A DNA stretch of 29,157 nt from a virus, in IMG/VR virus record IMGVR_UViG_3300049734_000274, positions 1 through 29,157 of that record; one strand, 5' to 3'. Below the pieces are notes generated by a model, which saw only the letters and a program-made list of their open reading frames with translations, was not told the DNA's origin and searched no databases. This document shows, in pieces, positions 2,764 to 22,577 of this stretch (position 1 is the stretch's first letter; each line of letters begins with the position of its first letter). The position numbers and the translations under genes are program-made.

Positions 2764-3476
2764 GCAGGTATCTCCTTCACCGTATTGATCACAGCAGTCG
2801 ATGCTGTTCCGACATCGAGCATGAGGCCTGAGAGAACCGTCTCATCACCTACACCCCCAAGCACAGAAGGATTAGCGCCAAGGTATCCAACGCCCCACGA
2901 GACGGAAGAAGCTGCGATCATTCGTATGCGCAACGCAAACGGCTGGCCGTTGTAGCCATTAATTGGAACATTGATTGTTGATGTCTCCCCGTTGAGCTCA
3001 AGAATGAACTTGTCACTATCTACGAGGTTTGGCGTCACACTTCCATCCGTCTCAATCTCAAGATACTGCCATCCCTCAGGAGGAGTCATATATGGAACAG
3101 CAAGATCATAAACTGGCCCTGAACCTAAATCCTCATCAGCATTGAATGTCTCCGCCGAAGTGTGTTCTTGTATGACCAGATAAAGACCTTCATTTGCAAC
3201 CTTGACCCAATCCCCATTCAGATAGAATGTTTCTGGTTGCCAGTCTCCACGATAACGAAGATTTGCCCGTGGCAATGTCACTTCGTGCGTTTGACCATTG
3301 CTCAAATGAATAGTGATTACAGATGAGCCTGGCTCCTGAGAAATATCAGTGATGCCTACGCCTGGAGTTGGATTGTCAGCAACATCCTGAATCAGATCAC
3401 GCAAAGTGCGAATGTTTCCATCCGCCTCTGCTGCTGTTAGGTTGCTGCCCTTAGTGTCCCTGAATACCAGAACCAT
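2760..3476 (-). CDS. Tail fibre / distal tail structural protein
   Basis: This 238-aa protein starts 20 bp after the preceding stop with a purine-rich leader, and its stop overlaps the next gene. The N-terminus MVLVFRDTKGSNLTAAEADG followed by NIRTLRDLI matches the LT-x-x-E-x-D-x-N-x-x-x-L motif found at the start of many phage fibre and tail-tip proteins. Residues 70-115 (RYRGDWQPETFYLNGDWV, then a GLYLV stretch) resemble small carbohydrate-binding modules of the W-x(5)-Y-x-x-G-D-x-V type. The C-terminal 100 residues are predicted beta-rich. It probably forms part of the distal tail fibre complex with its neighbours. Confidence 0.7.
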   Translation of the reverse strand: MVLVFRDTKGSNLTAAEADGNIRTLRDLIQDVADNPTPGVGITDISQEPGSSVITIHLSNGQTHEVTLPRANLRYRGDWQPETFYLNGDWVKVANEGLYLVIQEHTSAETFNADEDLGSGPVYDLAVPYMTPPEGWQYLEIETDGSVTPNLVDSDKFILELNGETSTINVPINGYNGQPFALRIRMIAASSVSWGVGYLGANPSVLGGVGDETVLSGLMLDVGTASTAVINTVKEIPA

Positions 3477-3496
3477 GTTCCATTTTCCCTTTTTTG

Positions 3497-4066
3497 CTAC
3501 GTGAAGATATCAAGCTCAGTTGAATCTCGGAACCACTGAACTGTAGTATTGTGAGGGAGATGGTCAGGATTCATATCACCTTCTTCCACCAAATGGCGGA
3601 CATAGACACTCTTCATACCTTCAAATTCTTTTGTCATTGAATAACGATAAGCCTTGAGTCCAAAAATGCCCAAATCCTTTTGAAGCTCAAGGGCTGATGC
3701 TCCAAATTGTAACACCACTTGTTCCCCATGCCTCCCACGAAACGCAATCGCCTTTATGATGCGAGCATACCAATTTAACAAATTCGAACCAGAAACAGTT
3801 TGTGTTATGAAAACATCTCCCCATTGACGTGCCTCTTCATAATAGTCACCTGAGAGGACATAGGGCTTTTCCAACTTATTTTCATCCAGAGGAGGATCGT
3901 CAATGCTAAAAGAAGAAGGCCCACCCCACTCAACGTAAGCCTCAGGAGTTTCAAACGGTATGACAACCTCTCGCTCTTCTGAGTAAGAGAGAATGGCTTG
4001 CTGCATCCGAGACAGCTTCCAAGGGTCATCACCTTTACGCAGTGAGATGGTTAGTTGCTTCTCCAT
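3497..4066 (-). CDS. EWGxPS-motif tail-region protein 3
   Basis: I recognise no known family. The 189-aa protein is the third of three adjacent paralogues. It shares with them a block at residues 27-56: SYSEEREVVIPF, then ETPEAYVEWGGPSSFSIDDP. A second weaker shared block (YYEEARQWGDVF) lies near residues 75-87. The C-terminal half (LNWYARIIKAIAFRG, later VQWFRDSTELDIF) is specific to this copy. It starts 4 bp after the preceding stop, with GGATGA as a modest ribosome-binding site. Position between tail hub and fibres suggests a tail-tip or fibre-linking role. It contains no membrane segment or catalytic motif. Confidence 0.65.
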   Translation of the reverse strand: MEKQLTISLRKGDDPWKLSRMQQAILSYSEEREVVIPFETPEAYVEWGGPSSFSIDDPPLDENKLEKPYVLSGDYYEEARQWGDVFITQTVSGSNLLNWYARIIKAIAFRGRHGEQVVLQFGASALELQKDLGIFGLKAYRYSMTKEFEGMKSVYVRHLVEEGDMNPDHLPHNTTVQWFRDSTELDIFT

Positions 4067-4070
4067 CGCT

Positions 4071-4535
4071 TCATCCTATATCATTGAAGTCTTCAATGTC
4101 CTCTGGATAAAAACCTTCCTCTTGTGCATCATCAGGAAAAACATTGATAGCGTATGGATGATATTTTGGCCTACCGGCTGGACTGTTAGGGCCATGTATG
4201 TGAAACACAACACCACGTCCCAGAGAAGAGTTAAATGACAAATGCGTCCAGACTGATTCAGTCACTGATTCTTCTATGTTGATCCCTGGTCCATGTTCGC
4301 TTCGAGTTCCAAAAACTCGTGACGTTGTGCCAGCTAAAAATGCTTGCCGGTATTTGACGACAATGCGTGGTCTTTTAGGATCATTGCCAGAATGATCCTT
4401 CTTGCTGAAAGGATCAATCTCAAACTGAGATGGACCGCCCCATTCATAGTAAGCCTCTGGCTTCTCCTCTAACAAGGCAACAGATCGTGGTTCTGAAAAC
4501 GAGCGAGCACGAGTGAACCGTCTGAGGATGGTCAT
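4071..4535 (-). CDS. EWGxPS-motif tail-region protein 2
   Basis: This 154-aa protein is the middle copy of the three-gene family. The shared block is at residues 11-41: RSFSEPRSVALL, then PEAYYEWGGPSQFEIDP. The downstream half is divergent (VWTHLSFNSSLGRGVVFHIH, then PSAG-like Pro/Gly stretches) and ends in an acidic tail (EEGFYPEDIEDFNDI). It begins 9 bp after the previous stop without a strong Shine-Dalgarno sequence, so coupling to upstream translation is likely. The copies are highly diverged outside the motif, which argues for an ancient duplication or modular exchange of variable tips. Function is unknown. Confidence 0.65.
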   Translation of the reverse strand: MTILRRFTRARSFSEPRSVALLEEKPEAYYEWGGPSQFEIDPFSKKDHSGNDPKRPRIVVKYRQAFLAGTTSRVFGTRSEHGPGINIEESVTESVWTHLSFNSSLGRGVVFHIHGPNSPAGRPKYHPYAINVFPDDAQEEGFYPEDIEDFNDIG

Positions 4536-4544
4536 GATTGCTCA

Positions 4545-5021
4545 TCAATCATCTTTAAATGGGAGGAAATCATATCTGTTTGAAAAACTCGGAGAGAAGG
4601 CAGGGACTGGAATAATCGGAGCATAACCACTTGTATGTTCCGCACCTGCCAAACGATGATCGAGATAAAATCTATGCTGTGTGTTATCAGGGCCAGACAT
4701 TGCCCAAGAAGAAACAATTGTCTCAAGAGTGCCATGTTGCGATAGATGGCCTTCCGAGCTATCATCAATCACAAATGAACTCTTCCAATATCTCGCTTCT
4801 TCAGAGAACGTATAACGCTTGCGTGAATCATCATCATCATGATCGTCATTCGGTTCATCTATGGTGCTGAATTGTGAAGGAGCACCCCACTCAACGTAAG
4901 CATCTGGCGTTCCAAAACTCATGATGACCTTGCGAGGTTCCGAATAAGACCGCGCCAAACGTCGCTGTCCATATTCTCCTAGCCTACGGGCAAAGCCATA
5001 ACCATAGCTATCATAACTCAT
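4545..5021 (-). CDS. EWGxPS-motif tail-region protein 1
   Basis: First of the three paralogues (158 aa), starting in an ATGA overlap with the hub gene. The N-terminus is Tyr/Gly/Arg-rich (MSYDSYGYGFARRLGEYGQR). The shared block spans residues 25-55: SYSEPRKVIMSF, then GTPDAYVEWGAPSQF. An acidic low-complexity stretch (NDDHDDDD, residues 58-65) precedes the second shared block (FSEEARYWKSSFVID). The C-terminus is aromatic and Pro-rich (PVPAFSPSFSNRYDFLPF). Direct coupling to the hub gene suggests its product attaches at the tail tip. No family assignment is possible from sequence alone. Confidence 0.65.
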   Translation of the reverse strand: MSYDSYGYGFARRLGEYGQRRLARSYSEPRKVIMSFGTPDAYVEWGAPSQFSTIDEPNDDHDDDDSRKRYTFSEEARYWKSSFVIDDSSEGHLSQHGTLETIVSSWAMSGPDNTQHRFYLDHRLAGAEHTSGYAPIIPVPAFSPSFSNRYDFLPFKDD

Positions 5022-7258
5022 GGCAAAGCATCCGCTTCAAGATCAACTGTTTTTTGAACCATCAATGACAAGTCACCAAGATCATAGATCGTTTCGAATG
5101 GACCACCCACCAAATTGATCAGCTGCATCTTCACCTTGGTATGAACATCATTCAAAGCCTTCTCTGCGGATTCAATGTCCTCATATGTTTGTCCAAGAAC
5201 ATCAGCTTGAACACTTTCACCATTCTCCACCTTGAGACCCTTGGGCTTCGGAAGTCCACCCACTAAGGTAGGAGAACTCCATGAAGCTCCTGCCCCTGTG
5301 GCAGAAACTGTAAAAGAATTAGCTGCTGTTCCTGCTTCAACCGCAATGACGCTCATCGCATTGGTATTGTGATCAAGACGGGCAGTCACATTTGGGTTCT
5401 TGATTGTACCCTCGCCATATCTCAAACCAGCAAAACCTTCCAAGGCAAGAACCGCACAAATCAGGTTGGTGATGCTATCATCAGTAGTGTAACCAATGCG
5501 AACAGCATTAGGCGCATCGGCTGCCGCTTTCCAAGTGTACAATGCCCCTGCAATTGTCACAGTTGAAAGCGCAACTGGAAGCTGATTCAACGTAAAGACT
5601 GCCTCAGCACGAGCGCCATCAATAATTGTTTCAGGACGCATGTCATTGAAGTTAACTCCATCATCATCAATGACGCCTTCATAGTCAGGATAAGTTATTG
5701 CATCATCGATAGCGACAATCTCCAACCCAGTGTATCTCTGATAGCCATCAACATAATCCTCTTGAACATACACAGGGATGCCAGAACTTGGATCTGGAAG
5801 CTCGTTTCCCTTACCAATTGTTCCAGCCACATCCACTGAACATCGTAGCTCTCCTCTTGAAATTGAAAAGCCATATCCGATTATCTTACCACCAGCTTGT
5901 CCACCTGGCATACGATCATCTATGATGAGCGCATTCTTCCGACAACTCATCTCAAGAAATTTGCTAAATGGCACATCGCAAGAAATGCGCACAGCCCTGG
6001 CCGTATAAAGTATGCGTGCCCGCGCAAGAGCGATGAGCCACTCAAGAGAATGCTTACCACGATCAGTATCAAAATACCTTCTCGCAAAATGACTTGTCAA
6101 AGGCAATCCTGAACCATCAATGTCTTCAGCCACGTTGGATGAGCTAATAGCAAACTGTTCAGATTTGTCCGCTCCAACAATGATGGGTTGTATATCAGCT
6201 ACAACGCTGAACCTCATAATCTCCTTGCGTGCTCGCGTGACGTCATATGCGACATCAAAGTAAGGAGGATTGAACTTCCAGAGGCTAAAGAAAACCTCCA
6301 ACTGTGAAGGATTTTCCTCTGGCGCATTGATGATATCGACAACGATACCATCTTCATTTTCGCTTTGATTGGGAACCAGATAGATGCCATACTGGTTGCC
6401 CTCTTGATAACGCTGACGAGTGTAGCGGCTCTCTGGCTGCTGCTCATCTTCTGGCGGCTTTGTGCTAGCACCCTTTGGCTCTCCAGCATAGGAGAGGCCA
6501 AAGGCCCAACCTCCTCCGATACGGTCACCAGTCATCGGCCATGTAGCTTCTAAACCTTGTCCCGTAAAAGATGTGATCAAGCCATCTTTGGATCCAGCAG
6601 CTTTGAAAGCCAGTTGAAGTTGGCGCTTCAAATCTATCGCACCACGCGCTGTCTGCGACCAATCAACGGTAGCCTCAACAACGAAGTGAGTGAGGGGCAC
6701 TCCGCTATAACCGAAACGAAGTGACGGATAATATTGCTCATCAACATCTATGTTTACAGTTCCATCCTCTCCAACCACGAAATCAGAAATTGAAATATCA
6801 TGCGTGACAGGATCAATATGCCAACGAGCAGACCGAGCTTGAAGAACATTCTCTGGATTGCTTCTCTGCTCTGGGTTGAACCAAATAGGATCATAAAACG
6901 GATAAACCTTCAATGTCTCTGCCAAAATCAATTTCTGTTCCTCAAAGTCTGCAGGCGCTGCCTTGTAAACCAGCGAGATAGTCTCTGCGTGAAGATCACT
7001 CGGCAATCCTTCTAGCCTGCCCAGAAAAAGAGGAACAGCAGGAGCACCATTGAGACTATAGCTAAACCAAACCCATTGCTTCCTTCCTGGATTGAGCAAT
7101 CCCACCTTTGGGTTCTTTACCAACAAACGAAGGGTTGCAAATTCTCCCTCATTGTGCATGAACTCTGCCAAATACACACGTTCATCCTTTTGCGCATGCG
7201 TAGATGCGTTGAAAGGAACGGATCCATTATCCACATAGGCATAAAAGAACTCAAGCAT
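5018..7258 (-). CDS. Large tail hub / baseplate-like protein
   Basis: This 746-aa protein lies immediately after a distal-tail-like gene, in the place where lambda-like phages encode the tail-tip hub. The start overlaps the upstream gene by 8 bp. The N-terminal 150 residues resemble the first domain of tail hub proteins (FATLRLLVKNPKVGLLNPG and PLFLGRLEGLPS). Residues 370-500 look like a second hub subdomain (HSLEWLIALARARI; GKIIGYGFSISRGELRCSVD). Residues 570-670 form a beta-module common in phage virion proteins (FTLNQLPVALSTVTIAG, YTWKAAAD, then NSFTVSATG). The C-terminal region is helical. It is probably the platform to which fibres attach; the exact lambda equivalent (J-like or smaller) is uncertain. 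Confidence 0.7.
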   Translation of the reverse strand: MLEFFYAYVDNGSVPFNASTHAQKDERVYLAEFMHNEGEFATLRLLVKNPKVGLLNPGRKQWVWFSYSLNGAPAVPLFLGRLEGLPSDLHAETISLVYKAAPADFEEQKLILAETLKVYPFYDPIWFNPEQRSNPENVLQARSARWHIDPVTHDISISDFVVGEDGTVNIDVDEQYYPSLRFGYSGVPLTHFVVEATVDWSQTARGAIDLKRQLQLAFKAAGSKDGLITSFTGQGLEATWPMTGDRIGGGWAFGLSYAGEPKGASTKPPEDEQQPESRYTRQRYQEGNQYGIYLVPNQSENEDGIVVDIINAPEENPSQLEVFFSLWKFNPPYFDVAYDVTRARKEIMRFSVVADIQPIIVGADKSEQFAISSSNVAEDIDGSGLPLTSHFARRYFDTDRGKHSLEWLIALARARILYTARAVRISCDVPFSKFLEMSCRKNALIIDDRMPGGQAGGKIIGYGFSISRGELRCSVDVAGTIGKGNELPDPSSGIPVYVQEDYVDGYQRYTGLEIVAIDDAITYPDYEGVIDDDGVNFNDMRPETIIDGARAEAVFTLNQLPVALSTVTIAGALYTWKAAADAPNAVRIGYTTDDSITNLICAVLALEGFAGLRYGEGTIKNPNVTARLDHNTNAMSVIAVEAGTAANSFTVSATGAGASWSSPTLVGGLPKPKGLKVENGESVQADVLGQTYEDIESAEKALNDVHTKVKMQLINLVGGPFETIYDLGDLSLMVQKTVDLEADALP

Positions 7259-11002: not shown

Positions 11003-11539
11003 TTATGGGCCTGGGCTGGCGCTCGTGTTCTCATCTCTCACAGTGATTGTGCCAAATCCTTGCCCTTGGTCAAGCACATCACCTTGGACTTCGATGCCGC
11101 CCCACTCATCAGAGATAGGCGTCAACGAGGCACCCGGCTGGAAGCTGACGGTTGGCAATTCAATGTCGATCTGATTGCCAATGTCATTCGCACCAACAAA
11201 CTTCACAGCAGCGGTGATCTCACTCAAAGAGAAGATGTTGATGACTTCGTCGCCTGCTGTATTGGTATCAACTTCACCCAACACAGCAAGTGCGAGGTTC
11301 TCAGCCACCCACTCTTCCATCACCATGCGCAGCGTTGCTGACTTCTCAAGCACCACTGTGCGATCCTTCGTGCGCACACCAGACATCTGCGAGAAGTGAT
11401 CAAGCTTCTCAACTGCTGGAGTGAACTCGAATTCAGAAACGTTCCCCACATGACGATAGTCAACATCAGCAGGCAACTTGACAAAGACGCTTCCCTTGCC
11501 GATGTAGTAGTTCAAGACATTCGGAGGTGTCGCTGGCAT
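11003..11539 (-). CDS. Major tail (tube) protein
   Basis: I place the start at the ATG at 11539 because GAGAGGAAGGG precedes it and it follows the upstream stop by 11 bp; a longer frame reaching 11644 would overlap that gene and lacks a site. The 178-aa product begins MPATPPNVLNYYIGKGSVFV, a typical tail-tube N-terminus. It continues with HVGNVSEFEFTPAVEKLDHF and GVRTKDRTVVLEKSATLRM, the conserved pattern of siphovirus tail tube subunits. Position between tail terminator and chaperone agrees. It is shorter than lambda gpV (246 aa) and appears to lack gpV's extra C-terminal Ig-like domain. Confidence 0.85.
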   Translation of the reverse strand: MPATPPNVLNYYIGKGSVFVKLPADVDYRHVGNVSEFEFTPAVEKLDHFSQMSGVRTKDRTVVLEKSATLRMVMEEWVAENLALAVLGEVDTNTAGDEVINIFSLSEITAAVKFVGANDIGNQIDIELPTVSFQPGASLTPISDEWGGIEVQGDVLDQGQGFGTITVRDENTSASPGP

Positions 11540-11550
11540 TTCCCTTCCTC

Positions 11551-12003
11551 TCAGAGCTTGGTTGGAAAGAGTGGATACCGGAATGAGATGTCCAACCCCA
11601 TCTCCGCTTCCATTGAGCGTCCCTGTAATACGCTTGTTGAGCAACCACGGTATCTGATCTCACCGTTCTCACCCACAATCGTCTGCAGGTCCACATCATT
11701 GAGCACAACCTTGAGGAATGCGGCGCGAAACTCATTCAGCTTCGATCCAACTTCCTCCGGTTTGTCAGCAAGCAGCAATGTGATCTCAGGAGACATCGTC
11801 ACAAGCGTTGGAGACTTCGCATGTCGGCTCCTCCCGCTATCATCTTCCCAATTGCTCTCTTCGTCCCCATCAAACAATGATACTGCTGGGCGAGCTTCTT
11901 CTGAAATGTGGAGCTTGTTGCGTGAAACGCTTTTGACCCCTGGCACAGACAATGACAGGAGCGAAAGCTGAACCATGATAGCTTCTCTGCGATCCTCCGC
12001 CAC
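11551..12003 (-). CDS. Tail terminator-like protein (gpU-like)
   Basis: This 150-aa protein starts at a GTG with AAGGAG seven to eight bases upstream, 1 bp past the preceding stop. It begins with a helix (REAIMVQLSLLSLSVPGVKS), then EEARPAVSLFDGDEESNWED, a pattern shared by tail terminator/completion proteins (P-G-V then R-P-A-x-x-L-F-D-G-x-E). The C-terminal half alternates helix and strands (LNEFRAAFLKVVLNDVDLQT; AEMGLDISFRYPLF). In lambda-like phages gpU caps the completed tail tube for joining to the head. Gene order between connector and tube supports this, and length is near lambda gpU's 131 aa. Confidence 0.7.
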   Translation of the reverse strand: MAEDRREAIMVQLSLLSLSVPGVKSVSRNKLHISEEARPAVSLFDGDEESNWEDDSGRSRHAKSPTLVTMSPEITLLLADKPEEVGSKLNEFRAAFLKVVLNDVDLQTIVGENGEIRYRGCSTSVLQGRSMEAEMGLDISFRYPLFPTKL

Positions 12004-12004
12004 A

Positions 12005-12364
12005 TCAAGCTCCTTCGATCAGGACGCACATCACCTGCCCATCAACCTCTCCTCCTGGTGAGGGAAGATAGCGATGCGACTCAACTCGCCAAGTCTTGCC
12101 ATTCATTCCAATGATGGCGCCATCCATCTCTTCGATGTTGATGAAGAGCGCATCGAGATCAACACGACGAAAGATCACAGCAGGCCTCATCATCTCTACC
12201 ATAGGCCCACCAATGTCTGTGTCGTAGTTTGTAATCACTCCTGCTGACCGATCGATGGCCTGTATGTCAACGGCTGCGGTCGCATCTGGGGCCTGAAGCT
12301 GAACGGTGACAGCTAGCGTATCATACACAGGAGCATAGAGGATCGAAGAGTAGTCAAGACCCAT
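12005..12364 (-). CDS. Head-tail connector protein (FII-like)
   Basis: At 119 aa it is close in length to lambda gpFII (117 aa), and it lies directly before the tail terminator gene. It starts MGLDYSSILYAPVYDTLAVT, a common opening of head-tail joining proteins. It is mostly beta, with RPAVIFRRVDLDAL, and ends in GKTWRVESHRYLPSPGGEVD followed by VMCVLI. These features fit the FII/gp9-10 connector group. The start overlaps the methyltransferase stop as TGATG. The glycan cassette therefore separates this connector from the capsid genes. Confidence 0.65.
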   Translation of the reverse strand: MGLDYSSILYAPVYDTLAVTVQLQAPDATAAVDIQAIDRSAGVITNYDTDIGGPMVEMMRPAVIFRRVDLDALFINIEEMDGAIIGMNGKTWRVESHRYLPSPGGEVDGQVMCVLIEGA

Positions 12365-13023
12365 CAGCGTGGCTCCAATACGAGGTTGCGATTGTCATAC
12401 ATTCCCTTCGTCTGATGCGTCTTGGAGAGTGTCTGCTCCACCAACGCGCGCGCGAAGTTGTCCAAGACTTCGATGATAAGTATGGGCTTCTCCCTCGCAA
12501 TGAGCTTCATCGCTCCTTTGAGGGCCATCATCTCAGCACGCTCAACATCAATCTTGATCGCAGCGAGCTTGTTCAATCCGCGGATGCCATCTAGGCGCAA
12601 TGTGCGCACAAAGATATGACCACGAGACTTCCGCAAAAGGCTTGCGCCAGATGTCAAATGAACTGTATCATTATAACCCAAGCGCGCATTGCCATCCTTC
12701 TCTGCTGCTGCTGCTTGGATGATCTCAAACTTGACGCCATTAAGCTCACTGTTTGCCTGTATGCGTTCCACCAAGTCAGGCATTGGCTCTATCGCCTTTG
12801 GCTCTGCTCCTCTCTTCGCTGCGAGAATGGAGAACAAGCCAGAGTAAGCTCCCACATCAAGAACCTGAACACCAGGCTCGCAAATCTCTGCCCACAATGC
12901 CAATGTATGTGGCTCAAACTCCTTCTTCGTCTGTATGCCTTTCACAATGCGATCATCATCAAGAAGATCGACTGTGAGGTTGCCAACCTTCACGCCAAAG
13001 ATGCCCATGCCGCTCTCGCCCAT
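12364..13023 (-). CDS. FkbM-family methyltransferase
   Basis: A 219-aa class I SAM-dependent methyltransferase. Motif I is seen at residues 54-63 (VLDVGAYSGL), an acidic residue at the end of the next strand (AIEPMPDL, residues 77-84), and the FkbM signature IKIDVERAEMMALKG at 156-170, corresponding to the family's KxDVEGxExxxLxG. The usual Gly of that signature is Arg here. FkbM enzymes O-methylate sugars in antibiotics, capsules and glycans. Neighbouring glycosyltransferases point to methylation of a sugar. The N-terminus overlaps the preceding gene by 34 bp without a good ribosome site, so the start could be at Met6 (13008). Confidence 0.85.
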   Translation of the reverse strand: MGESGMGIFGVKVGNLTVDLLDDDRIVKGIQTKKEFEPHTLALWAEICEPGVQVLDVGAYSGLFSILAAKRGAEPKAIEPMPDLVERIQANSELNGVKFEIIQAAAAEKDGNARLGYNDTVHLTSGASLLRKSRGHIFVRTLRLDGIRGLNKLAAIKIDVERAEMMALKGAMKLIAREKPILIIEVLDNFARALVEQTLSKTHQTKGMYDNRNLVLEPR

Positions 13024-13661
13024 TTGTTGACTGTGCTATGAGGCTTCGCCTTCCCTGCGAAGATGACCAAGGAGCATCCATCAGGTGGAGCTTCCTTATG
13101 TTGTTCAAGATAACGATACCCCAAGAAGAAATTTGGAGGCAAGAGAGGTTGAAGCAGAACCGCATTCGGCTCCAGTTCTTCAATGACCTTCTGATCTCCA
13201 TACTTGCCTGCCTTGTCCATCAATGCCCAACGATCAGGCCAAAACTTCCGAAATACGTCATCACCATAATCTGGACCGAATGTCATCACACAAGAGCCAT
13301 ACAGGCAAGGCCATTCGAGATTGCCAGCAGCACGTGTGAAGTTCGCACAAATGCCGAATGGAATGTCGAGATCAGCAAGTGGACTAAGATCACCTACAAT
13401 GACTGTGTCCAGATCGAAGTAGAGAACACGTTGGCCTCTTCGCCACTTGTGAGAGAACAAGACCATCTTCGCCCACCAAGAGCGCAACCGCATATCCTCT
13501 ATGTTGACTGCCTTCACTCCGCACCTGATAAGGTCTTTTGGGCGATCAGTGAAGCAAACGAAGCTATGCTCATATGGAAGATGACGCTCCACCATTGAGC
13601 GTAAACGGGAGACATACTCAGGGGAATATCTGTCTCCCGTTCTTACGCACGCAACAATCAT
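12990..13661 (-). CDS. GT-A glycosyltransferase with DxD motif
   Basis: The 223-aa protein starts in an ATGA overlap with the small membrane protein gene. It opens with a Rossmann-like strand (MIVACVRTGDRYSPEYVSRL) and has HSFVCFTDRP, followed by the GT-A nucleotide-sugar and metal site YFDLDTVIVGDLSPL at residues 81-95 (Asp83, Asp85). Later elements include GSCVMTFGPDYGDDVF and the closing GKAKPHS, matching GT8-like enzymes where a late His binds metal. It is small for the fold and has no membrane anchor. It probably transfers a sugar from a nucleotide donor; donor and acceptor cannot be read from the sequence. Its own neighbour encodes a related enzyme. Confidence 0.85.
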   Translation of the reverse strand: MIVACVRTGDRYSPEYVSRLRSMVERHLPYEHSFVCFTDRPKDLIRCGVKAVNIEDMRLRSWWAKMVLFSHKWRRGQRVLYFDLDTVIVGDLSPLADLDIPFGICANFTRAAGNLEWPCLYGSCVMTFGPDYGDDVFRKFWPDRWALMDKAGKYGDQKVIEELEPNAVLLQPLLPPNFFLGYRYLEQHKEAPPDGCSLVIFAGKAKPHSTVNKWARAAWASLA

Positions 13662-13867
13662 ACCATACCAAACAGACGCAACAAACCCACAATGGCGATA
13701 AGGATCAAGAGAACAATCGTCAACGTTGACAACGCATTCCTTGCTTGATCATTCTTCACCATTGGGAGTAGGAGATACACAATGATGATGCCAATTGCGA
13801 CCAGCACAACAAAGAACACGAGCAGCTGGACAAGGCCAATGAGTGAAATGGTTTCGACCATGATCAT
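13658..13867 (-). CDS. Small two-helix membrane protein
   Basis: A 69-aa hydrophobic protein overlapping both neighbours by ATGA. Two transmembrane helices are evident: residues about 8-35 (LIGLVQLLVFFVVLVAIGII and onward) and 46-68 (LSTLTIVLLILIAIVGLLRL). A short polar loop, MVKNDQARNA, lies between them. Met3 is an alternative start. Its size and two helices would fit a holin, but its place between two glycosyltransferase genes, far from any lysis gene, argues instead for a membrane partner of the glycan enzymes. A similar layout occurs in many phages as an unexplained small membrane protein among virion genes. Confidence 0.75.
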   Translation of the reverse strand: MIMVETISLIGLVQLLVFFVVLVAIGIIIVYLLLPMVKNDQARNALSTLTIVLLILIAIVGLLRLFGMV

Positions 13868-14679
13868 GAGCTCCTTGGACCTGATTTGTAGCCGCTCAGG
13901 TTCTGCTTGACATACTCACCAAAGAGAGGAGAGCCTGTGTAACGATCAACGCCAAAGCCTTCCCTCTCTGCCTCCTCCAACAAATTGTCGAAGAGTTCAA
14001 TCAGATCTGAACGCCAATGCGTCCTCACCTGACCATTGAACCAATGCTTCCTTCCTTGAGCCTCCAATCGTGGGATCGCATAGCGGAGATGCGGCTGCTG
14101 CGACATCACTGTGTAGTGGATAGCCTTCAAGTCAGGATCGAAGAGATTGATGAATGTCTCGCCATCCAAGCAATTCCATGCGCCTTCAAATTGTTGAACG
14201 GAAGAGGAGAAGCGCATACGATCCATCATCACGCGATGCGAGATTGGATCAGAGCGGAGAATGTTAATTGGCAACATCTCAGGCTTCATCTTCTCACAGT
14301 CCCACAATGAGACGCAAAACCTCCACGATCCTCCTCCTTTTGCGAGCACTCCCTTGCCCTTCTCCAACTTTTGATTCCAGAGATCAGCAATGTCTGCTTG
14401 GACAATCACATCACTGTCCATGTAGATGGCTCTACCTTCGAAACCACAATATGCTGGCACTGCCCAACGGAAGCAAGAGAAGGGAGTTGCCCAAGTGCGC
14501 GTCTGCCATCCCTGCTTCCCATCTGAGAACCAAAAGCTGTCTGGGTTCTTGCTCAGCATCATCCAAACAATCTCAATGTCCATCGAAGAGTGCTTGCGCA
14601 AGGACCATTCCAGCACTGCTTGTGATTCAGCATCCTCATGATTCGCAGCACAACCAACGAACACTCTCACCGCAGACAT
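13864..14679 (-). CDS. GT8-like glycosyltransferase
   Basis: The 271-aa protein has a typical GT-A layout: an N-terminal strand RVFVGCAANHEDAESQAVLE, helix-strand units, then FSCFRWAVPAYCGFEGRAIY and the metal-binding YMDSDVIVQADIADLW at residues 86-101 (Asp88, Asp90). Downstream are CLDGETFINLFDPDLKAIHY and a His-containing C-terminal part with HWFNGQVRTHWRS. This resembles GT8-like or phage-encoded hypothetical glycosyltransferases. ATG at 14679 has GGAGGGA upstream and overlaps the preceding gene by 13 bp. It is larger than the second glycosyltransferase and only the core is similar, so the two probably add different sugars. Donor and acceptor are unknown. Confidence 0.82.
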   Translation of the reverse strand: MSAVRVFVGCAANHEDAESQAVLEWSLRKHSSMDIEIVWMMLSKNPDSFWFSDGKQGWQTRTWATPFSCFRWAVPAYCGFEGRAIYMDSDVIVQADIADLWNQKLEKGKGVLAKGGGSWRFCVSLWDCEKMKPEMLPINILRSDPISHRVMMDRMRFSSSVQQFEGAWNCLDGETFINLFDPDLKAIHYTVMSQQPHLRYAIPRLEAQGRKHWFNGQVRTHWRSDLIELFDNLLEEAEREGFGVDRYTGSPLFGEYVKQNLSGYKSGPRSS

Positions 14680-15362
14680 TGAGCAATTCCCTCCTCAACA
14701 CTCACCCTTTTGAAGACTTCAATGCGGCTGGTTGGCGAAGCATTGGTGACTTCGATGTTGGATTTTTCCATTTGCGGGATGACGTGGTTGAAGCTGGCAG
14801 CCCAGGCCTTCCACGTTTCAAAATCATACTGATGGTTGGGATCGTAGTGCCTTTGATTCGCATGCCACTCTCCTTCGTCATTGGGCCCATAGTCGAAACC
14901 AAACAGCACAATCTTCGTCGCACCCTTCAGATACGCAAAATTGAAAGCGCCAAACCCAGACGTTCCTCCTCCATGAATCACGCTTGGGTTGTCAGACAGT
15001 CCAAGCTTCGTATCTCTCCTCAAGTAGTGAAGATTGCGAGGAGGGAAGGAGAGACGATTGACAGTCCATGTGTCAGGGACTGCCCACCATATAGGAAAAT
15101 TCACATCACGCAATCTCTTCCACCATTTGCGCAACTCAATGGTGTCCAGACCGAAGCCCACATCAGCCCATGGATAATCGAAGATGGCACCCTTCACAGC
15201 AATCGCATGAACCTTCCCTTGCAGAACTTCAAGGTCAAACTCCTTCAAAGAAGGTCCACCACCAATGATGATGGTCGGCTTCCTCCTCCACATAGGAGGT
15301 TCTATGCGCTCAAATCGCACAGGCTTCACCAAGATTGACTTTCGGAATGAAATCACAGGCAC
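14667..15362 (-). CDS. DUF115/MptE-like Rossmann protein, putative glycosyltransferase (copy 2)
   Basis: The 231-aa protein contains the hallmark PTIIIGGGPSLKEFDLEVLQ (residues 29-48), followed by VHAIAVKGAIFDYPWADVGF. A second nucleotide-fold element is ATKIVLFGFDYGPNDEGEWH (residues about 158-177). This pattern is shared by DUF115/MptE-like and GT42-like proteins, which in phages and flagellar loci are associated with sugar transfer. It is a diverged paralogue of the adjacent upstream gene. The GTG start at 15362 overlaps that gene by 53 bp and has no convincing ribosome site; Met24 (15293) is an alternative just before the GGGPS motif. Enzymatic role is inferred from motifs and neighbours. 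Confidence 0.7.
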   Translation of the reverse strand: MPVISFRKSILVKPVRFERIEPPMWRRKPTIIIGGGPSLKEFDLEVLQGKVHAIAVKGAIFDYPWADVGFGLDTIELRKWWKRLRDVNFPIWWAVPDTWTVNRLSFPPRNLHYLRRDTKLGLSDNPSVIHGGGTSGFGAFNFAYLKGATKIVLFGFDYGPNDEGEWHANQRHYDPNHQYDFETWKAWAASFNHVIPQMEKSNIEVTNASPTSRIEVFKRVSVEEGIAQCLR

Positions 15363-15927
15363 TGTCCATGCTTGTGTTCACAATCGGAAAGTTTCTTCTG
15401 TTCAACTCTTCCATCATCAATCGCAAGTCACTCAGCATCAATGGGTAGCAATTCTGTGAGACCTTCCAAGGATGCGGAGGATGATGATGATCATCTCCCT
15501 TCAGATCTGCTCCAAGCAAAACGATCTTCGCTGCTCCCAAATGCCAGGCAAGATTGATCGCACCAGTCAAAGAAGTATGACACACAGCGAGCTTCGAAAT
15601 ATCCACAGCAAGACCAGGAGGTGGCTTGAGCTTCTCCAAACAATGAACTCTCTTGTCATTGAAGGAAAGATTGCGCACTGTGCGTGATGTCGTCACAATC
15701 CTGTTGGTGAAGGCTTTCAGTTTCGTGTGATAGTGTCCCCAAAACCTCCAATCATGGAAGTAAAGAAAGTCAGCAGAGAGGAAGGCTTGAAAGCTCGCAT
15801 TGATCGCGATCACTCTTCTCCCTCTCAATGATGACAAATCTTCCTGTAATACGCTGGGGCCGCCACAGATGATGAAAGCCACCTCTCCTTCCCAGATACG
15901 CGGCACACGCCAGAGAGGCTTCTTCAC
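15310..15927 (-). CDS. DUF115/MptE-like Rossmann protein, putative glycosyltransferase (copy 1)
   Basis: This 205-aa protein begins at GTG, 32 bp after the preceding gene. The motif EVAFIICGGPSVLQEDLSSL at residues 15-34 plus VIAINASFQAFLSADFLYFH corresponds to the nucleotide-binding start of the MptE-like/DUF115 fold. The central TSLTGAINLAWHLGAAKIVL then LGADLKGDDHHHPPHPW matches the second conserved region, including the His-rich stretch. The C-terminus (LMMEELNRRNFPIVNTSMDS) completes the fold. It is the first gene of the glycan cassette. Family members are often annotated as LPS-biosynthesis or sialyltransferase-like; precise chemistry is unknown. Confidence 0.72.
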   Translation of the reverse strand: MKKPLWRVPRIWEGEVAFIICGGPSVLQEDLSSLRGRRVIAINASFQAFLSADFLYFHDWRFWGHYHTKLKAFTNRIVTTSRTVRNLSFNDKRVHCLEKLKPPPGLAVDISKLAVCHTSLTGAINLAWHLGAAKIVLLGADLKGDDHHHPPHPWKVSQNCYPLMLSDLRLMMEELNRRNFPIVNTSMDSACDFIPKVNLGEACAI

Positions 15928-15959: not shown

Positions 15960-16178
15960 TTACTTTGGCCTGTCACTCTTCGGAATGGGATTGCCCTTGT
16001 CATCAAGCACAAGCTCCCCATTCTCATCCAACTCATACAGGCCACTGTCCTTGCGTGGGTCTTCAGAAGGCTTCTCAAAATGCCCACCAGGGCTCACAGT
16101 TGAACCCGGAGGAGCTGCTGTGCCTTCACTCAAGTCAGGACGTCCAGGTTTGCCGATGTCCCTCTTGTCACCTGACAT
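15960..16178 (-). CDS. Small Gly/Pro-rich hydrophilic protein after capsid gene
   Basis: I choose the ATG at 16178 because AAAGGAGAG lies just upstream; the longer frame to 16244 would overlap the capsid gene. The 72-aa product is hydrophilic and probably disordered (SEGTAAPPGSTVSPGGHFEK), ending in a short acidic segment (LYELDENGELVLDDKGNPIP). Lambda has the small gene FI in this place, but no sequence similarity is visible to me. It could be a head-assembly accessory or a leader of the glycan cassette. Function unknown. Confidence 0.55.
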   Translation of the reverse strand: MSGDKRDIGKPGRPDLSEGTAAPPGSTVSPGGHFEKPSEDPRKDSGLYELDENGELVLDDKGNPIPKSDRPK

Positions 16179-16218: not shown

Positions 16219-17232
16219 TCAGATGGTCCCCACCAGCAGCACACCAGGACGTGTGCAGATGTCGAGCGAGTTCATCTGACTGTCAAGCGCGATACCCTTC
16301 CCATTGGGCATCTCGTATTGCTTCGTGTAGCGCGGCTGCCCAACAGTGTTGACAGTTTCGATGTAATCCGCAGGAGCAAAGTATGTCCTGAAGAGATTGG
16401 GCACACCGATAGGGAAGAGATGTGCCTTGACTGGATCGATGAACTGCGTCCCACCGACCGCACCACGGTAGTTGTCCCACATGATGCCACCGAATGGGAA
16501 GGCGCCAAATGAGAGACCAGTCTGGACATAGCCTTGGCGAAGTTCTGCCGCAGCAGTCCAGCCCATGAAGGTGTCACGCACTTCTGGATGCGAGATGAGC
16601 GCATCGAAGAAGTCATCACCAACAAACGCATACACGCCAGTGAAGGGAGTAGCTCCCAACTTGCCAGCGATCATACGCACAACCGCTGCGCACTGCTGAC
16701 GAAGAGCACCAGCAGTGGGAGTGGGATTGTCAAGATCGAAGTCAATCTCAGGCTCTTGCGTCACCCCAAACAGATCGAAGAGGTTCAGCGTGGAGCCATC
16801 AGCATACTGGACTTCACCCTTGACGGCGCCAATGCGAGAGTATTCATGGGTGGCTTCGAGCGAGTTGGTATGGAGTTGCTGCCTCTCAGCAACCTTCCCC
16901 ATAACAGTTTCCAACTGCGTCTCTGTTCCCCACGCACGCACTCCCTGCACTTCATCAGCCATCACACTGTCATTGATCTCGAAATGAGGAACAGCAACAG
17001 CACGCAAGTTGCGTGGGCCTTTCGGCAGAGTGTGACCAGGTCCACCACGAGGAGTGGGCCCAATCAATTCAAGGATGCCATCCTTTTGTTCGATCACAGC
17101 AGCCAGAGAAGTGATGCCACTCTCATTGAAGATGCCGAGTTGACCGATACGACCAGGAATGAAATCCAGATTGTTGATCGCATCAGTGAGATTGACTACA
17201 CTGAATGCGTCATTCTGGAAGATGTCCAACAT
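16219..17232 (-). CDS. Major capsid protein (lambda gpE family)
   Basis: The 337-aa protein is nearly the length of lambda gpE (341 aa). It shows the family's N-terminal pattern MLDIFQNDAFSVVNLTDAIN followed by PGRIGQLGIFNESGI, a P-domain-like middle (LRQQCAAVVRMIAGKLGATP) and the C-terminal pattern VPNLFRTYFAPADYIETVNT then PRYTKQYEMPNGKGIALDSQ, where the capsid-family tail A-x-G and R-P signature (CTRPGVLLVG) closes the protein. It follows the decoration gene by 18 bp with AGGGAGAAG before ATG. It assembles the icosahedral shell and is a plausible acceptor for the glycan cassette encoded next. Confidence 0.93.
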   Translation of the reverse strand: MLDIFQNDAFSVVNLTDAINNLDFIPGRIGQLGIFNESGITSLAAVIEQKDGILELIGPTPRGGPGHTLPKGPRNLRAVAVPHFEINDSVMADEVQGVRAWGTETQLETVMGKVAERQQLHTNSLEATHEYSRIGAVKGEVQYADGSTLNLFDLFGVTQEPEIDFDLDNPTPTAGALRQQCAAVVRMIAGKLGATPFTGVYAFVGDDFFDALISHPEVRDTFMGWTAAAELRQGYVQTGLSFGAFPFGGIMWDNYRGAVGGTQFIDPVKAHLFPIGVPNLFRTYFAPADYIETVNTVGQPRYTKQYEMPNGKGIALDSQMNSLDICTRPGVLLVGTI

Positions 17233-17250: not shown

Positions 17251-17634
17251 TCACTCGCGAACAATGATGCCCAGCAGGGCCAAGCTCGCAATCATGTTGG
17301 CCTTGGCAGGATTGCCAGTGGTGTCCTCTGGATAGACAAGTCCATGGACATTCACCTCCGCATCGCGTGCGATGTAGGAGACGGCCGCATCCATGTCAGT
17401 GGCATCGATGTTGTAGAGAATGATGCCGGCTGCCTCACCAGACCCACCAGGGTCAGTCACATCACCAGCAGCATACGCGATGAGCTTGCCAGACCCATTG
17501 TCCGTCACCACAGTGCCGGCTGCGAGCTTTCCCTGGCCAGAGGCAACGATGCCATTCTCGCGAGAGCGATGCCCATTGGCTTCACTCAAAATGAAACCAG
17601 TGTTGGGCGCACCAACTTCAAAAGTGGGAAACAT
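17251..17634 (-). CDS. Head decoration protein (lambda gpD family)
   Basis: The 127-aa protein has the gpD-family pattern: an extended N-terminus (FEVGAPNTGFILSEANGHRS), then NGIVASGQGKLAAGTVVTDN, YAAGDVTDPGGSGEAAGIIL and a C-terminal NMIASLALLGIIVRE. Lambda gpD (110 aa) binds capsid three-fold axes as trimers and stabilises the expanded head. The gene lies between protease/scaffold and capsid, the standard order. The ATG is preceded by AGGAAGGAG. It is exposed on the head surface in the family, so it is another candidate target for glycosylation. Confidence 0.88.
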   Translation of the reverse strand: MFPTFEVGAPNTGFILSEANGHRSRENGIVASGQGKLAAGTVVTDNGSGKLIAYAAGDVTDPGGSGEAAGIILYNIDATDMDAAVSYIARDAEVNVHGLVYPEDTTGNPAKANMIASLALLGIIVRE

Positions 17635-19459: not shown

Positions 19460-19749
19460 CAGTTCTTCTTCACGACCATCAGCGCATTGAGATCACGGAT
19501 GGTGGCGTCCCTGGCTTGGATGATGGCCATCGCCTTTGCCAACTCTCCTCGCAGTTGAACTGTGCGATTGCGCAGACCGTTGTTTTGCTCTTGAAGCTCA
19601 GCAAGCATGGCATTGATACTTTCGACCGCGCCCACCTGCTGATCAGAAGGCTGCTGAGGAGGAGGTTGTTCAGCCTTCTCCTTCACTGCCTCCTTCGCAA
19701 CTCTCTTCGCCACTACTGCCTCCTCAGACATATGCCCATTCCTTCTCAT
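19459..19749 (-). CDS. Small coiled-coil protein
   Basis: A 96-aa protein coupled by ATGA to the large fibre gene; an alternative ATG at 19731 (Met7) has AGAAGGA eight bases upstream and may be the true start. The N-terminal half is charged with a Pro/Gln stretch (EKAEQPPPQQPSDQQ). Residues about 40-92 form a convincing coiled coil (SINAMLAELQEQNNGLRNRT, then VQLRGELAKAMAIIQARDAT). Its position after a fibre and before a repeat protein suggests a trimerisation or chaperone role in fibre assembly. Nothing enzymatic is visible. Confidence 0.6.
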   Translation of the reverse strand: MRRNGHMSEEAVVAKRVAKEAVKEKAEQPPPQQPSDQQVGAVESINAMLAELQEQNNGLRNRTVQLRGELAKAMAIIQARDATIRDLNALMVVKKN

Positions 19750-22577
19750 GCGATACCTGCCGCTTGCATTTTGTCATACATGCCGCTCATAACAACACCC
19801 ATCATATCGACAACGAGCCAAAGACGCGACACCATCTGGCCCAGGGAGAACTTGCTCTGCTCCCATTCCGACTTGATGGGCATTCCTGGGATGCCTTCCT
19901 GATCCTTCATTCGCGCAAAGAAGGTCTCTGGCTTACGAGGATCACATCCGCTGTCAATCAACTCCTTGAAGAGACGCGCTGTGGTATGGGTGCGCACCTT
20001 CTCATAAGCCGGACGCAGCACCTTGTATGGCTCACCATCAGGAGGAGGATTAGGATCATACTCTGCTGGCCATATCTGATTAGGCACCAATGCGTCCCAC
20101 TTCTCCAAATTGACAATTCCCGTTTCTATGAACTCCTTGTCAAGAGGGATACACGTCAACAATGTGCCATCGTCATAGCACGCATCCATGTTGATGGATC
20201 CATTGCCCTTGTCAGCTCCAGTTGCTGCTGTATGAAAGAGACCACCGGAAATGAGAAGCCGCGCACCCAAACCTCCCGCAGTGATGGCTTGAAGCTGCGT
20301 TTCAATTTCCTCACTACCATTAGTGCCAGTTCTGATGATATTTCGCCAAGCTGCCCAAGTCTTGGAAACACTCGAAGCATTGTCACCAATCGCAAACACA
20401 CCACCGATCTCATCATTCGCACCACCAACTGTATTTCGATTCAGACTGATGCTCGGTCCATGAGTGGCGGAGTTCTCTGTACAAACACATTGAATGATTT
20501 GCCCAGATGCTAAACGATTGAGAAAGAAGGTTCCTGCTGATACTGAAAAATTGCCAGCAGATATCACAACATCACCAGGATTGATTGTTGTATCGCCACC
20601 GATGCTGACAGAACCTCCTGACCCTGGCTGGATAAAAATGCGTCCAGGATAAGTTGCGTGCGAGTTTCCATACAAAGAGAGGTAAGCACCGACTGTACTG
20701 TCAATTGCTCCGTAGAGGTGCAAGGCTCCTGTGTTGTTACTCTTGTTGATCATACTGGATGATTGGTCAAGAGTGAGGAAGCCTCCACCAAACTTCACAT
20801 TCCTGTCAGCACGATTGATCGCGATAGCACGTCCAATGTTCGCACCAGCATCATTATAAGCATTGATGACAAAGGTTGCTCCTGCATTCGATCCTGCCTC
20901 AGCATCATTGTCAATGAAACATTGCCAACGCTGAGAGGTTCCACTTCGAAAGATAATTTGACGAAGGCTTCCAGCATCAGCATCCATCAAGAGTTGCGCA
21001 CTACTTCCACCAGTGCGAGAGATGTGAAGGTCACCTCCGGTTGTCTTGATCGTTCCTCCAGCATTGAACTCAAAGGCGGCATTCGTTATGCTCAGGAGCT
21101 CAATCGTTCCAGCAGGCCCAGCACCCAGATATGCGCTTCCACTTCCGATTGCCTCATTGCCATACAACTGAAGGTAGGCGCCACGATCATTGTTGCTAGC
21201 GAAAGCTCCTCCACCAGTGACGACAACATAACCATCATCTGCGCCATCAGCAGTGTTACGACGAAGCACGAGGTTGGCCGTCGCAATGATGTCTCCTCCT
21301 CCGATGGAGAGATCACCGCTCATCGTCAAATTGCCAATACCTGTGTAGTTACCGGAGATGCGAGCATCAGGAACAGTGCCTGTTGAGAGGTCACTGGCAC
21401 TTCCAGAAGAAGCAATCGCAGCCAATCCCGTCACATCAGCAGCAGCAATGGCGAGAGAAGATTTGAAAGCAGCGTATGTTGTCTCCTTAATGAGACGTCC
21501 ACTCGTGCCATCAAACAAGACCGGATTGTTCGCAGTGACGCTCGAAGGTCCAACAACAGCACCATCAATGTTCGCCTGAACGATTGACCAATTGGCACCT
21601 ACTGTAGCATGATCGCCAGCACTAGTAGCATCGACAAGACACACAAGAAGATCGCCAACTTCGACATTGGGCCCACTCGCTCCTCCTATCTTGCCTGCGA
21701 CAGAGATGCGATATGTATGGCCAGCGTCAGCTGCTGGATAATTCGGATTTGTGCTCGCATTGATGACACCCTTGAAGAGCATCGCATCATTGGCGCCAAA
21801 GCCAGCAGCGATGGCAGTCGTCACAAAGGCAGTCGTTGCGAGCTTCGTCGTGCTGTCGCCCGCTGTTGGCGTTGGTCCTGTTGGAGACGCAGCGAACGCA
21901 ACAATGCCGGTTGCGCGCGTGATCGTCAAAGGAACGGAGAGCGCAGCACCAGCATCACTGTAGTTGATAATCTGAAAATTCGAGCCTGCGTCACTGCCGC
22001 TCTCTGCGGCATTGTTGATCCTCCAAACCCAACGAGTGCTAGTGCCGGTTTGAAACGAATAGTCGATAGCAAACCCTGCGTCACGTCTCGCAATGAACTG
22101 CGCAGGAGAAGCATCACCTGTGCGATCCAAGATTATGGAACCAGCATTGACCTGAAGCGAATTGGCCAACAACGTAGCATTGACAGTGACACCGCCAGTG
22201 AACGTCGCACCAGTGAGATTTGCCTTCGCATCAAGTGCTGTCTGAAGTCCAGACACATCAGCAATGGCAATTGCGAGGACAGTTTTCGCCTGCGCAGCTG
22301 TCAATGCGATGGGCGCTGCCGCTCCTCCGGTATTGTTGCCAAGGATCGTAGATGCGCCAATGCTGGCGATATTTGAGAGCCCAACACCACCAGCTTTCAA
22401 CTGAAGAACATTCGTCACCCACTCGAATGAGGAGCCAATGTCACCAGCCTCTCCTCTTATCATCGCCTCATTTGCGATCGCAGTGCTGTATGCGTTGAGC
22501 TCAGCACCAGTGATGCCTTGGACGCCATTGCTATCGAAGTTGGCGTTTGCGTAGGCGAGGAGAGTTGCGCGCGACAT
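19746..22577 (-). CDS. Large fibre-like protein within the head module
   Basis: At 943 aa, this is the largest gene here. Its N-terminus (MSRATLLAYANANFDSNGVQ) is followed by fibre-type modules: NLTGATFTGGVTVNATLLAN, a GDSTTKLATTAFVTTAI motif widespread in tail fibres, and long Ser/Gly/Ala/Asn-rich beta regions. A module like RWVWRINNAAESGSDAG recurs as RWQCFIDNDAEAGSNAG, indicating an internal duplication. There is no clear S74 chaperone; instead the C-terminus is a different helical part (ARLFKELIDSGCDPRKPETF; VSRLWLVVDMMGVVMSGM). It is encoded directly after portal and a 141-aa protein and before the protease, an odd place for a tail fibre. Confidence 0.75.
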   Translation of the reverse strand: MSRATLLAYANANFDSNGVQGITGAELNAYSTAIANEAMIRGEAGDIGSSFEWVTNVLQLKAGGVGLSNIASIGASTILGNNTGGAAAPIALTAAQAKTVLAIAIADVSGLQTALDAKANLTGATFTGGVTVNATLLANSLQVNAGSIILDRTGDASPAQFIARRDAGFAIDYSFQTGTSTRWVWRINNAAESGSDAGSNFQIINYSDAGAALSVPLTITRATGIVAFAASPTGPTPTAGDSTTKLATTAFVTTAIAAGFGANDAMLFKGVINASTNPNYPAADAGHTYRISVAGKIGGASGPNVEVGDLLVCLVDATSAGDHATVGANWSIVQANIDGAVVGPSSVTANNPVLFDGTSGRLIKETTYAAFKSSLAIAAADVTGLAAIASSGSASDLSTGTVPDARISGNYTGIGNLTMSGDLSIGGGDIIATANLVLRRNTADGADDGYVVVTGGGAFASNNDRGAYLQLYGNEAIGSGSAYLGAGPAGTIELLSITNAAFEFNAGGTIKTTGGDLHISRTGGSSAQLLMDADAGSLRQIIFRSGTSQRWQCFIDNDAEAGSNAGATFVINAYNDAGANIGRAIAINRADRNVKFGGGFLTLDQSSSMINKSNNTGALHLYGAIDSTVGAYLSLYGNSHATYPGRIFIQPGSGGSVSIGGDTTINPGDVVISAGNFSVSAGTFFLNRLASGQIIQCVCTENSATHGPSISLNRNTVGGANDEIGGVFAIGDNASSVSKTWAAWRNIIRTGTNGSEEIETQLQAITAGGLGARLLISGGLFHTAATGADKGNGSINMDACYDDGTLLTCIPLDKEFIETGIVNLEKWDALVPNQIWPAEYDPNPPPDGEPYKVLRPAYEKVRTHTTARLFKELIDSGCDPRKPETFFARMKDQEGIPGMPIKSEWEQSKFSLGQMVSRLWLVVDMMGVVMSGMYDKMQAAGIA

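Follow-up and report, generated by a model that had tools for sequence, protein, structure and literature searches.

A modular island of Maf-type glycosyltransferases and companion enzymes in the capsid-connector interval of a lambda-like siphophage, with a probable role in virion glycosylation

Why would a phage keep sugar-transfer and methyltransferase genes in the middle of its virion genes? The question is raised by IMG/VR virus record IMGVR_UViG_3300049734_000274, a stretch of 29,157 bases analysed here as a whole (the window), in which six tightly packed open reading frames (ORFs) at 12364-15927 stand between the capsid-side genes and an FII-like connector gene. The recognisable phage genes of the window, including every window feature named below, are on the minus strand and follow a lambda-like order, with small and large terminase, gpW-like adaptor, portal, a structural protein, a spike-like gene, protease, decoration and capsid genes on one side of the cassette, and FII-like, Z-like and tail-tube genes followed by the tape measure on the other; the record is of the lambda-like siphophage type. 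Consecutive cassette ORFs overlap by 53, 13, 4, 4, and 34 nt, and the last shares 1 nt with the FII-like gene (12005-12364). The ORFs and their flanks are as described in a first reading of the sequence alone (the original prediction), which took the six genes for a coordinated sugar-transfer and sugar-methylation system acting on a capsid, decoration or fibre protein. On the basis of family searches, structure models and comparison of loci, we consider it probable that the cassette carries out stepwise O-glycosylation of a virion protein in the cytoplasm, with methylation as the cap.

The first two genes of the cassette, mafA (15310-15927, 205 aa, GTG start) and mafB (14667-15362, 231 aa), had been described as encoding two DUF115/MptE-like proteins. 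PF01973 (MptE-like) is indeed the best Pfam match of both, at 16.9 and 26.9 bits against a curated cut-off of 34.6, and PHROG profile searches matched MafA (E=3.7e-26) and MafB (E=1.4e-20) to phrog_4603, annotated as alpha-2,3-sialyltransferase. Compared with solved structures by sequence profile, MafA had chance matches only, and a single-protein viral scan with it gave no match. The AlphaFold model of MafA, built from 30 homologues, has a pLDDT of 96.3, and its best match in the PDB is the Maf protein of Magnetospirillum magneticum (5mu5; Z 16.4, rmsd 3.2 Å over 187 of 205 residues), found with a second aligner; Maf 5mu5 was not among the best 50 matches listed when Foldseek E-values were used for ranking. 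The alignment covers 5mu5 chain residues 253-512, i.e., the catalytic domain. The next structural matches are MptE (M. jannaschii HPPK, Z 12.4) and CstII (Z 12.3). MafA thus has the Maf/GT42-like catalytic fold according to its model, and the GGPS and H-x-H motifs are conserved across divergent members of its family. The three-domain architecture of Maf is absent, MafA and MafB consisting of the catalytic domain only. Maf enzymes O-glycosylate flagellin on Ser/Thr, and their central domain resembles CstII (PMC11339370).

These results bear on a literal reading of the family label, by which the two proteins would be pterin pyrophosphokinases of the MptE type. The sub-threshold Pfam match and the second place of the M. 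jannaschii enzyme among the structural matches speak for it, whereas Maf scores 4 Z units higher over 187 of 205 residues and the neighbouring genes concern sugars rather than pterins, which makes this reading extremely improbable. The MptE-like label of the original prediction is thus refined: MafA and MafB are better read, from the structure model, as stand-alone Maf-type catalytic domains. The PF01973 profile also had no match in three host genomes of Maf-bearing prophages, although these hold Maf relatives, so the Pfam model is too narrow for this Maf family.

The remaining assignments, two GT-A glycosyltransferases with DxD motifs, a two-helix membrane protein and an FkbM methyltransferase, held up. 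GTA1 (13864-14679, 271 aa) has a sub-threshold PF01501 match (E=8e-5) and a DSD motif whose D88 and D90 are invariant in 11 relatives; its model is of low confidence (pLDDT 56.5) and, among the matches listed, resembles only GT8-type GT-A folds (Z ~13). As far as a poor model allows, GTA1 has the GT-A fold and the DxD motif of a GT8 glycosyltransferase. GTA2 (12990-13661, 223 aa), with a DLD motif, belongs to the glycosyltransferase family phrog_1962 (E=1.4e-23) and is a relative of P1 PmgQ (tblastn E=1e-6) and P7 HdmD. The protein encoded at 12364-13023 (219 aa) is an FkbM-type S-adenosylmethionine (SAM) methyltransferase (PF05050, E=5e-12, 46.7 bits against a cut-off of 22.7) and the proposed capping O-methyltransferase. 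TM69 (13658-13867, 69 aa) is the sole cassette protein with hydrophobic helices, about two according to a hydropathy scan; it had no Pfam or PHROG match and no homologue among the fetched loci. None of the six proteins matched a GtrA flippase, a GtrB bactoprenol transferase or a multi-pass GtrC. A gtrABC seroconversion cassette was considered as a candidate and set low, there being no GtrA/B/C-type Pfam match in the six proteins.

To see how the capsid-connector interval is used in relatives, we gathered capsid homologues in viral contigs and in bacteria, mostly Alphaproteobacteria, with each bacterial species represented by a single genome; removal of capsids at least 90% identical left 115 non-redundant capsid loci (numbered L). 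Connectors of the FII/Z/tail-tube type are present in 23 of these, and within this sub-lineage the stretch from capsid to FII varies from locus to locus. At least 12 of the 23 carry a Maf gene inside the gap (13 with L137, found by tblastn); the census counts come from our own ORF tiling and are lower bounds, as the tiling missed the MafA frames in L137 and L110-L112. The gap Maf is the first gene after the capsid in nine loci and the second in two, and no Maf was found elsewhere in the examined stretch of the 23 loci. The content of the gap ranges from nothing (36 nt in L007, which has a capsid 63% identical to that of the window) through one small gene (L033, L138, L157, L158, L169) or MafA with no other recognised enzyme (L109, L121, L176) to 3.5 to 9 kb of further genes (L015/L154/L163, L137, L126, L127, L120, L150, L030/L115). 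Homologues of the FII-like connector directly follow the capsid in L007 and stand at the end of the island in other loci, and the order FII-Z-major tail protein is kept across loci. Similar islands occupy the post-capsid or post-tail-sheath spot in many phages of soil and aquatic Alphaproteobacteria. Parts of the cassette and their positions recur in this way, the exact six-gene set of the window being found in no other locus examined. As a side observation, the gap of L114 (7090-9190) holds, before MafA, genes for a radical SAM/SPASM protein and for two proteins with a GHGRS motif; by eye the latter two resemble sialyltransferases, and the one tested had no Pfam match.

This placement, which tracks virion genes, also bears on whether the enzymes might instead glycosylate bases of the phage DNA. 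We know of no Maf/CstII-type fold that acts on DNA, and in the window, which may be a fragment of its genome, we recognised no gene for hydroxylation or replacement of bases. Phage glycosyltransferases that hypermodify DNA do exist (Pyle et al., 2024, as cited in PMC12619734); for the present cassette we regard a DNA target as very unlikely.

The second site is the interval after the tail sheath. In all six Maf-bearing sheath loci, which belong to Bradyrhizobium-type contractile phages, Maf lies 0-1 genes after the sheath gene. L038 has the order sheath, MafB, GT-A, phrog_2518 protein, GTA2, FkbM, tail tube, with the sheath (phrog_165, E=1e-147) and tube identities confirmed by PHROGs. The myophage island of L038 and L183 shares with the window the order MafB, GT-A, GTA2, FkbM; between the window and L038, identity is 43% for MafB, 48% for GTA2 and 42% for FkbM, and the GT-A genes between MafB and GTA2 show a weak likeness (22% over 119 residues). 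The island differs from the cassette in its site between tail sheath and tube and in having the phrog_2518 protein where the window has TM69; no post-capsid MafA was detected in L038. Phylogenetic analysis placed the MafB of the window as sister to five post-sheath proteins (support 100/100), and MafA in a group of mostly post-capsid proteins with moderate support. Since all five post-sheath proteins form one clade, they count as a single event. In L172, one Maf-like gene lies two genes after the capsid and another two after the sheath. To judge from these sequences, the cassette appears to combine a post-capsid MafA with a mobile block that otherwise occurs at the post-sheath site.

Maf relatives also occur fused to, or clustered with, other sugar enzymes. 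We found natural fusions of MafA with FkbM (L244), GTA2 with Maf (L186), and MafA with GTA2 (L269), and in L126 MafA is fused to a long region that ends in a methyltransferase domain. In other islands the additional genes encode a phosphomannomutase-like phosphatase together with a cytidylyltransferase (L137), a sulfotransferase (L030), or a cupin with an oxidoreductase and a short-chain dehydrogenase (L150), a repertoire of the kind that supplies nucleotide sugars and decorates glycans. Such fusions and clusters, together with the GGPS and H-x-H motifs kept in divergent members, argue against the idea that the Maf-like protein is a virion component rather than an active enzyme. That idea draws on phage PAJU2, whose depositor called the Maf-like ORF010 a "structural protein", a label limited among the genes viewed to ORF003, ORF010, ORF015, and ORF023. 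We consider it very improbable. The PAJU2 record itself (L267; AP009624, 7780-8349) labels ORF010 in the same way as capsid and tail proteins, and the protein may copurify with virions.

How, then, might the cassette act? Late in infection, MafA, the proposed priming glycosyltransferase, would transfer the first sugar, in the cytoplasm, to a Ser/Thr residue on one of the abundant virion proteins. MafB, GTA1, and GTA2 would then extend the chain, the FkbM enzyme would O-methylate the product, and TM69 may have an accessory role. The virion glycan could shield the particle or change its adsorption or stability. A virion protein is favoured as the target because Maf, the best structural match of MafA, modifies protein Ser/Thr directly and because Maf genes recur beside capsid, sheath, and head genes. 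The same reading is favoured by the activity fusions, the companion sugar enzymes and the absence of GtrA/B/C-like proteins, by the recurrence of the MafB/GTA2/FkbM block in the same order between tail sheath and tail tube in L038, by the presence of related genes among capsid and connector genes in 'Tetraselmis' virus S20, PMG1, and PAJU2, and by phage XacN1, which has Maf and GTA2 homologues and for which virion glycoproteins are reported. Other rhizobial and viral genomes add to the picture of placement. Genes sought by similarity to MafA alone around the L038 host are rare (4/199, 4/385, and 13/392 genomes), and the nameable neighbours of rhizobial Maf genes are mostly a major head protein, decoration protein, head-tail adaptor, Hc1 or tail terminator. 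Among relatives on viral contigs, near-copies included, 20 follow a gpE-type capsid and 34 a head-tail adaptor; in a further group of five, the upstream gene encodes a phrog_122 decoration protein in the one member tested.

The main rival holds that the target is host lipopolysaccharide or capsule, which the enzymes would modify from within the cytoplasm, so that the altered receptor is no longer recognised by other phages, or progeny do not adsorb to debris. One of the structural matches of MafA, CstII, sialylates lipooligosaccharide. GT8 enzymes such as LgtC, which appear among the structural matches of GTA1, act on lipopolysaccharide, and TM69 is a membrane protein. Moreover, jumbo cyanophages have polymorphic glycosyltransferase clusters that also contain sugar isomerases and nucleotidyltransferases, and a jumbo-phage review interprets these as serving O-antigen modification (PMC7824862). 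The closest solved relative of MafA is, however, a protein O-glycosyltransferase, and the cassette contains no GtrA/GtrB/GtrC-like flippase or multi-pass transferase. In many phages the genes are kept in the virion cluster beside capsid or sheath, a place that lysogenic conversion does not need. Host surface remodelling is thus unlikely, albeit the strongest of the competing explanations.

Within virion glycosylation, the abundant proteins encoded nearby are the leading candidate acceptors: first the major capsid protein of the lambda gpE type (16219-17232; phrog_29, E=1.6e-52) or the gpD-type head decoration protein (17251-17634; phrog_49, E=2.4e-17), and second the major tail (tube) protein with its Ig-like domain (11003-11644; phrog_807, E=8.3e-30). 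Several observations weigh against virion glycosylation. When cassette-positive and cassette-negative phages were compared, neither a Ser/Thr-rich extension nor any other mark of an acceptor set their capsid, decoration, tail-tube or connector proteins apart. The presence of TM69 is a hint that one step may be linked to the membrane. Some Maf relatives are found in other contexts: after large tail genes in Caulobacter phages, near nucleotide-metabolism genes in Mosig, and, in rhizobial genomes (L278, L279), beside hexapeptide acetyltransferase-like, glycosyltransferase-like, and fibre-like genes, while P1 pmgO/pmgQ lie near baseplate and tail genes. P1 pmgO and pmgQ are also dispensable for plaque formation (PMC10695390), which at the same time fits an accessory role. 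Finally, among the hosts of three Maf-bearing prophages, NeuB is present for L030 and absent for L038 and L109 (both Bradyrhizobium), with the proviso that draft genomes may be incomplete; the missing NeuB match makes a Maf-like nonulosonate donor unlikely in the latter two. The original prediction is thus upheld as to a coordinated system of sugar transfer and methylation, for which families, structure, conserved position, two sites, and fusions all speak; its capsid, decoration or fibre target found no acceptor signature to support it. Separately, one group of soil phages (L189, L204, L191, L192) has, immediately upstream of MafA, genes for proteins with collagen-like Gly-Pro-Pro repeats, which are possible acceptors there.

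The positions next to tail and fibre genes, in the Caulobacter phages and in L278/L279, and the 943-aa spike-like gene inside the head module of the window leave room for a sub-case in which the target is a minor protein (fibre, spike or other accessory virion protein) instead of capsid, tube or sheath. In the lineage of the window MafA follows the capsid and not a fibre gene in most loci, and we regard this sub-case, whose likelihood overlaps with that of virion glycosylation as a whole, as doubtful.

As to the donor, CMP-Kdo is present in Gram-negative hosts. Clostridium Maf can use Kdo in the absence of its native sugar (PMC11339370), so CMP-Kdo is one possible donor. A bolder version of virion glycosylation, possible in our view but clearly tentative, would be a modular island whose minimal Maf domain acts as primer for whichever structural protein has its gene directly upstream, i.e., the capsid in siphophages and the sheath in myophages. 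Acceptor choice would then be tied to gene position, variable downstream enzymes would diversify the glycan in the manner of an O-antigen locus, and the donor would not be of the sialic-acid type.

The surroundings of the cassette in the window contain several further features. A 72-aa ORF rich in Pro, Ser, Thr, and acidic residues (15960-16178), preceded by AAAGGAG, stands between the capsid gene and the cassette; it may be FI-like or a linker, is a possible acceptor, and had no confident Pfam or PHROG family and no homologue among the fetched loci. The Z-like connector or tail terminator gene lies at 11551-12003. GC and GC3 of the cassette are near those of its flanks and thus give it no appearance of recently inserted foreign DNA, and promoter-like and terminator-like sites in the region show no excess over shuffled sequence. 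The 943-aa gene (19746-22577) has tail-spike-like PHROG matches and no Pfam match; it is flanked by a phrog_3758 structural gene and the protease gene, which is an unusual position for a spike. Large genes after the tape measure (5018-7258 and 1675-4535) had no Pfam and mostly no PHROG match and probably encode an undescribed tail tip.

If virion glycosylation is correct, many phages and prophages of Alphaproteobacteria would wear self-made, fast-diversifying methylated glycans, put on by a stripped-down relative of flagellin-glycosylating enzymes, and virion glycosylation would grow from a trait of a few mycobacteriophages to a widespread one in phages of Gram-negative bacteria. It would also provide compact cytoplasmic protein O-glycosyltransferases for glyco-engineering and a testable function for long-obscure genes such as P1 pmgO and pmgQ.

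Among known systems, the Maf flagellin O-glycosyltransferases of Magnetospirillum (5mu5), Aeromonas, Campylobacter, and Clostridium share with MafA the fold of the catalytic domain, and both would work in the cytoplasm. The bacterial enzymes modify an abundant self-assembling surface protein on Ser/Thr. MafA differs in being a single domain of ~205 aa that lacks the N- and C-terminal domains of Maf and is encoded in a phage operon, and the hosts of two of its relatives lack NeuB. In the mycobacteriophages Che8, Corndog, and Myrna, glycosyltransferases encoded by the phage add sugars to the capsid and tail tube proteins (Freeman et al., 2023; summarised in PMC12363180 and PMC12619734). The summaries consulted mention no Maf-type enzyme or FkbM cap, and the acceptors named for the present system are candidates. 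In P1 pmgO-pmgQ and P7 HdmD, PmgO is annotated in the same sialyltransferase-like family and PmgQ is akin to GTA2, but P1 has a phosphatase gene between the two, unlike the window. PMG1/D3, PAJU2, and S20 carry one or more Maf-like genes and a methyltransferase among capsid and head-tail connector genes, as in the window; they differ in capsid type and gene complement, and their records give no function. In XacN1, the MafA and GTA2 homologues are close together beside large genes, and at least two virion glycoproteins have been reported for this phage (PMC5852040). The claim that no system of this composition had been described is therefore narrowed: virion glycosylation was already known from Che8, Corndog, and Myrna, while the composition, now refined, was not met elsewhere as an exact set. 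Of the readings considered, the best supported is that of phage virion glycosylation, probably primed by a Maf-type enzyme, capped by an FkbM enzyme and organised as a modular island tied to the major virion genes.

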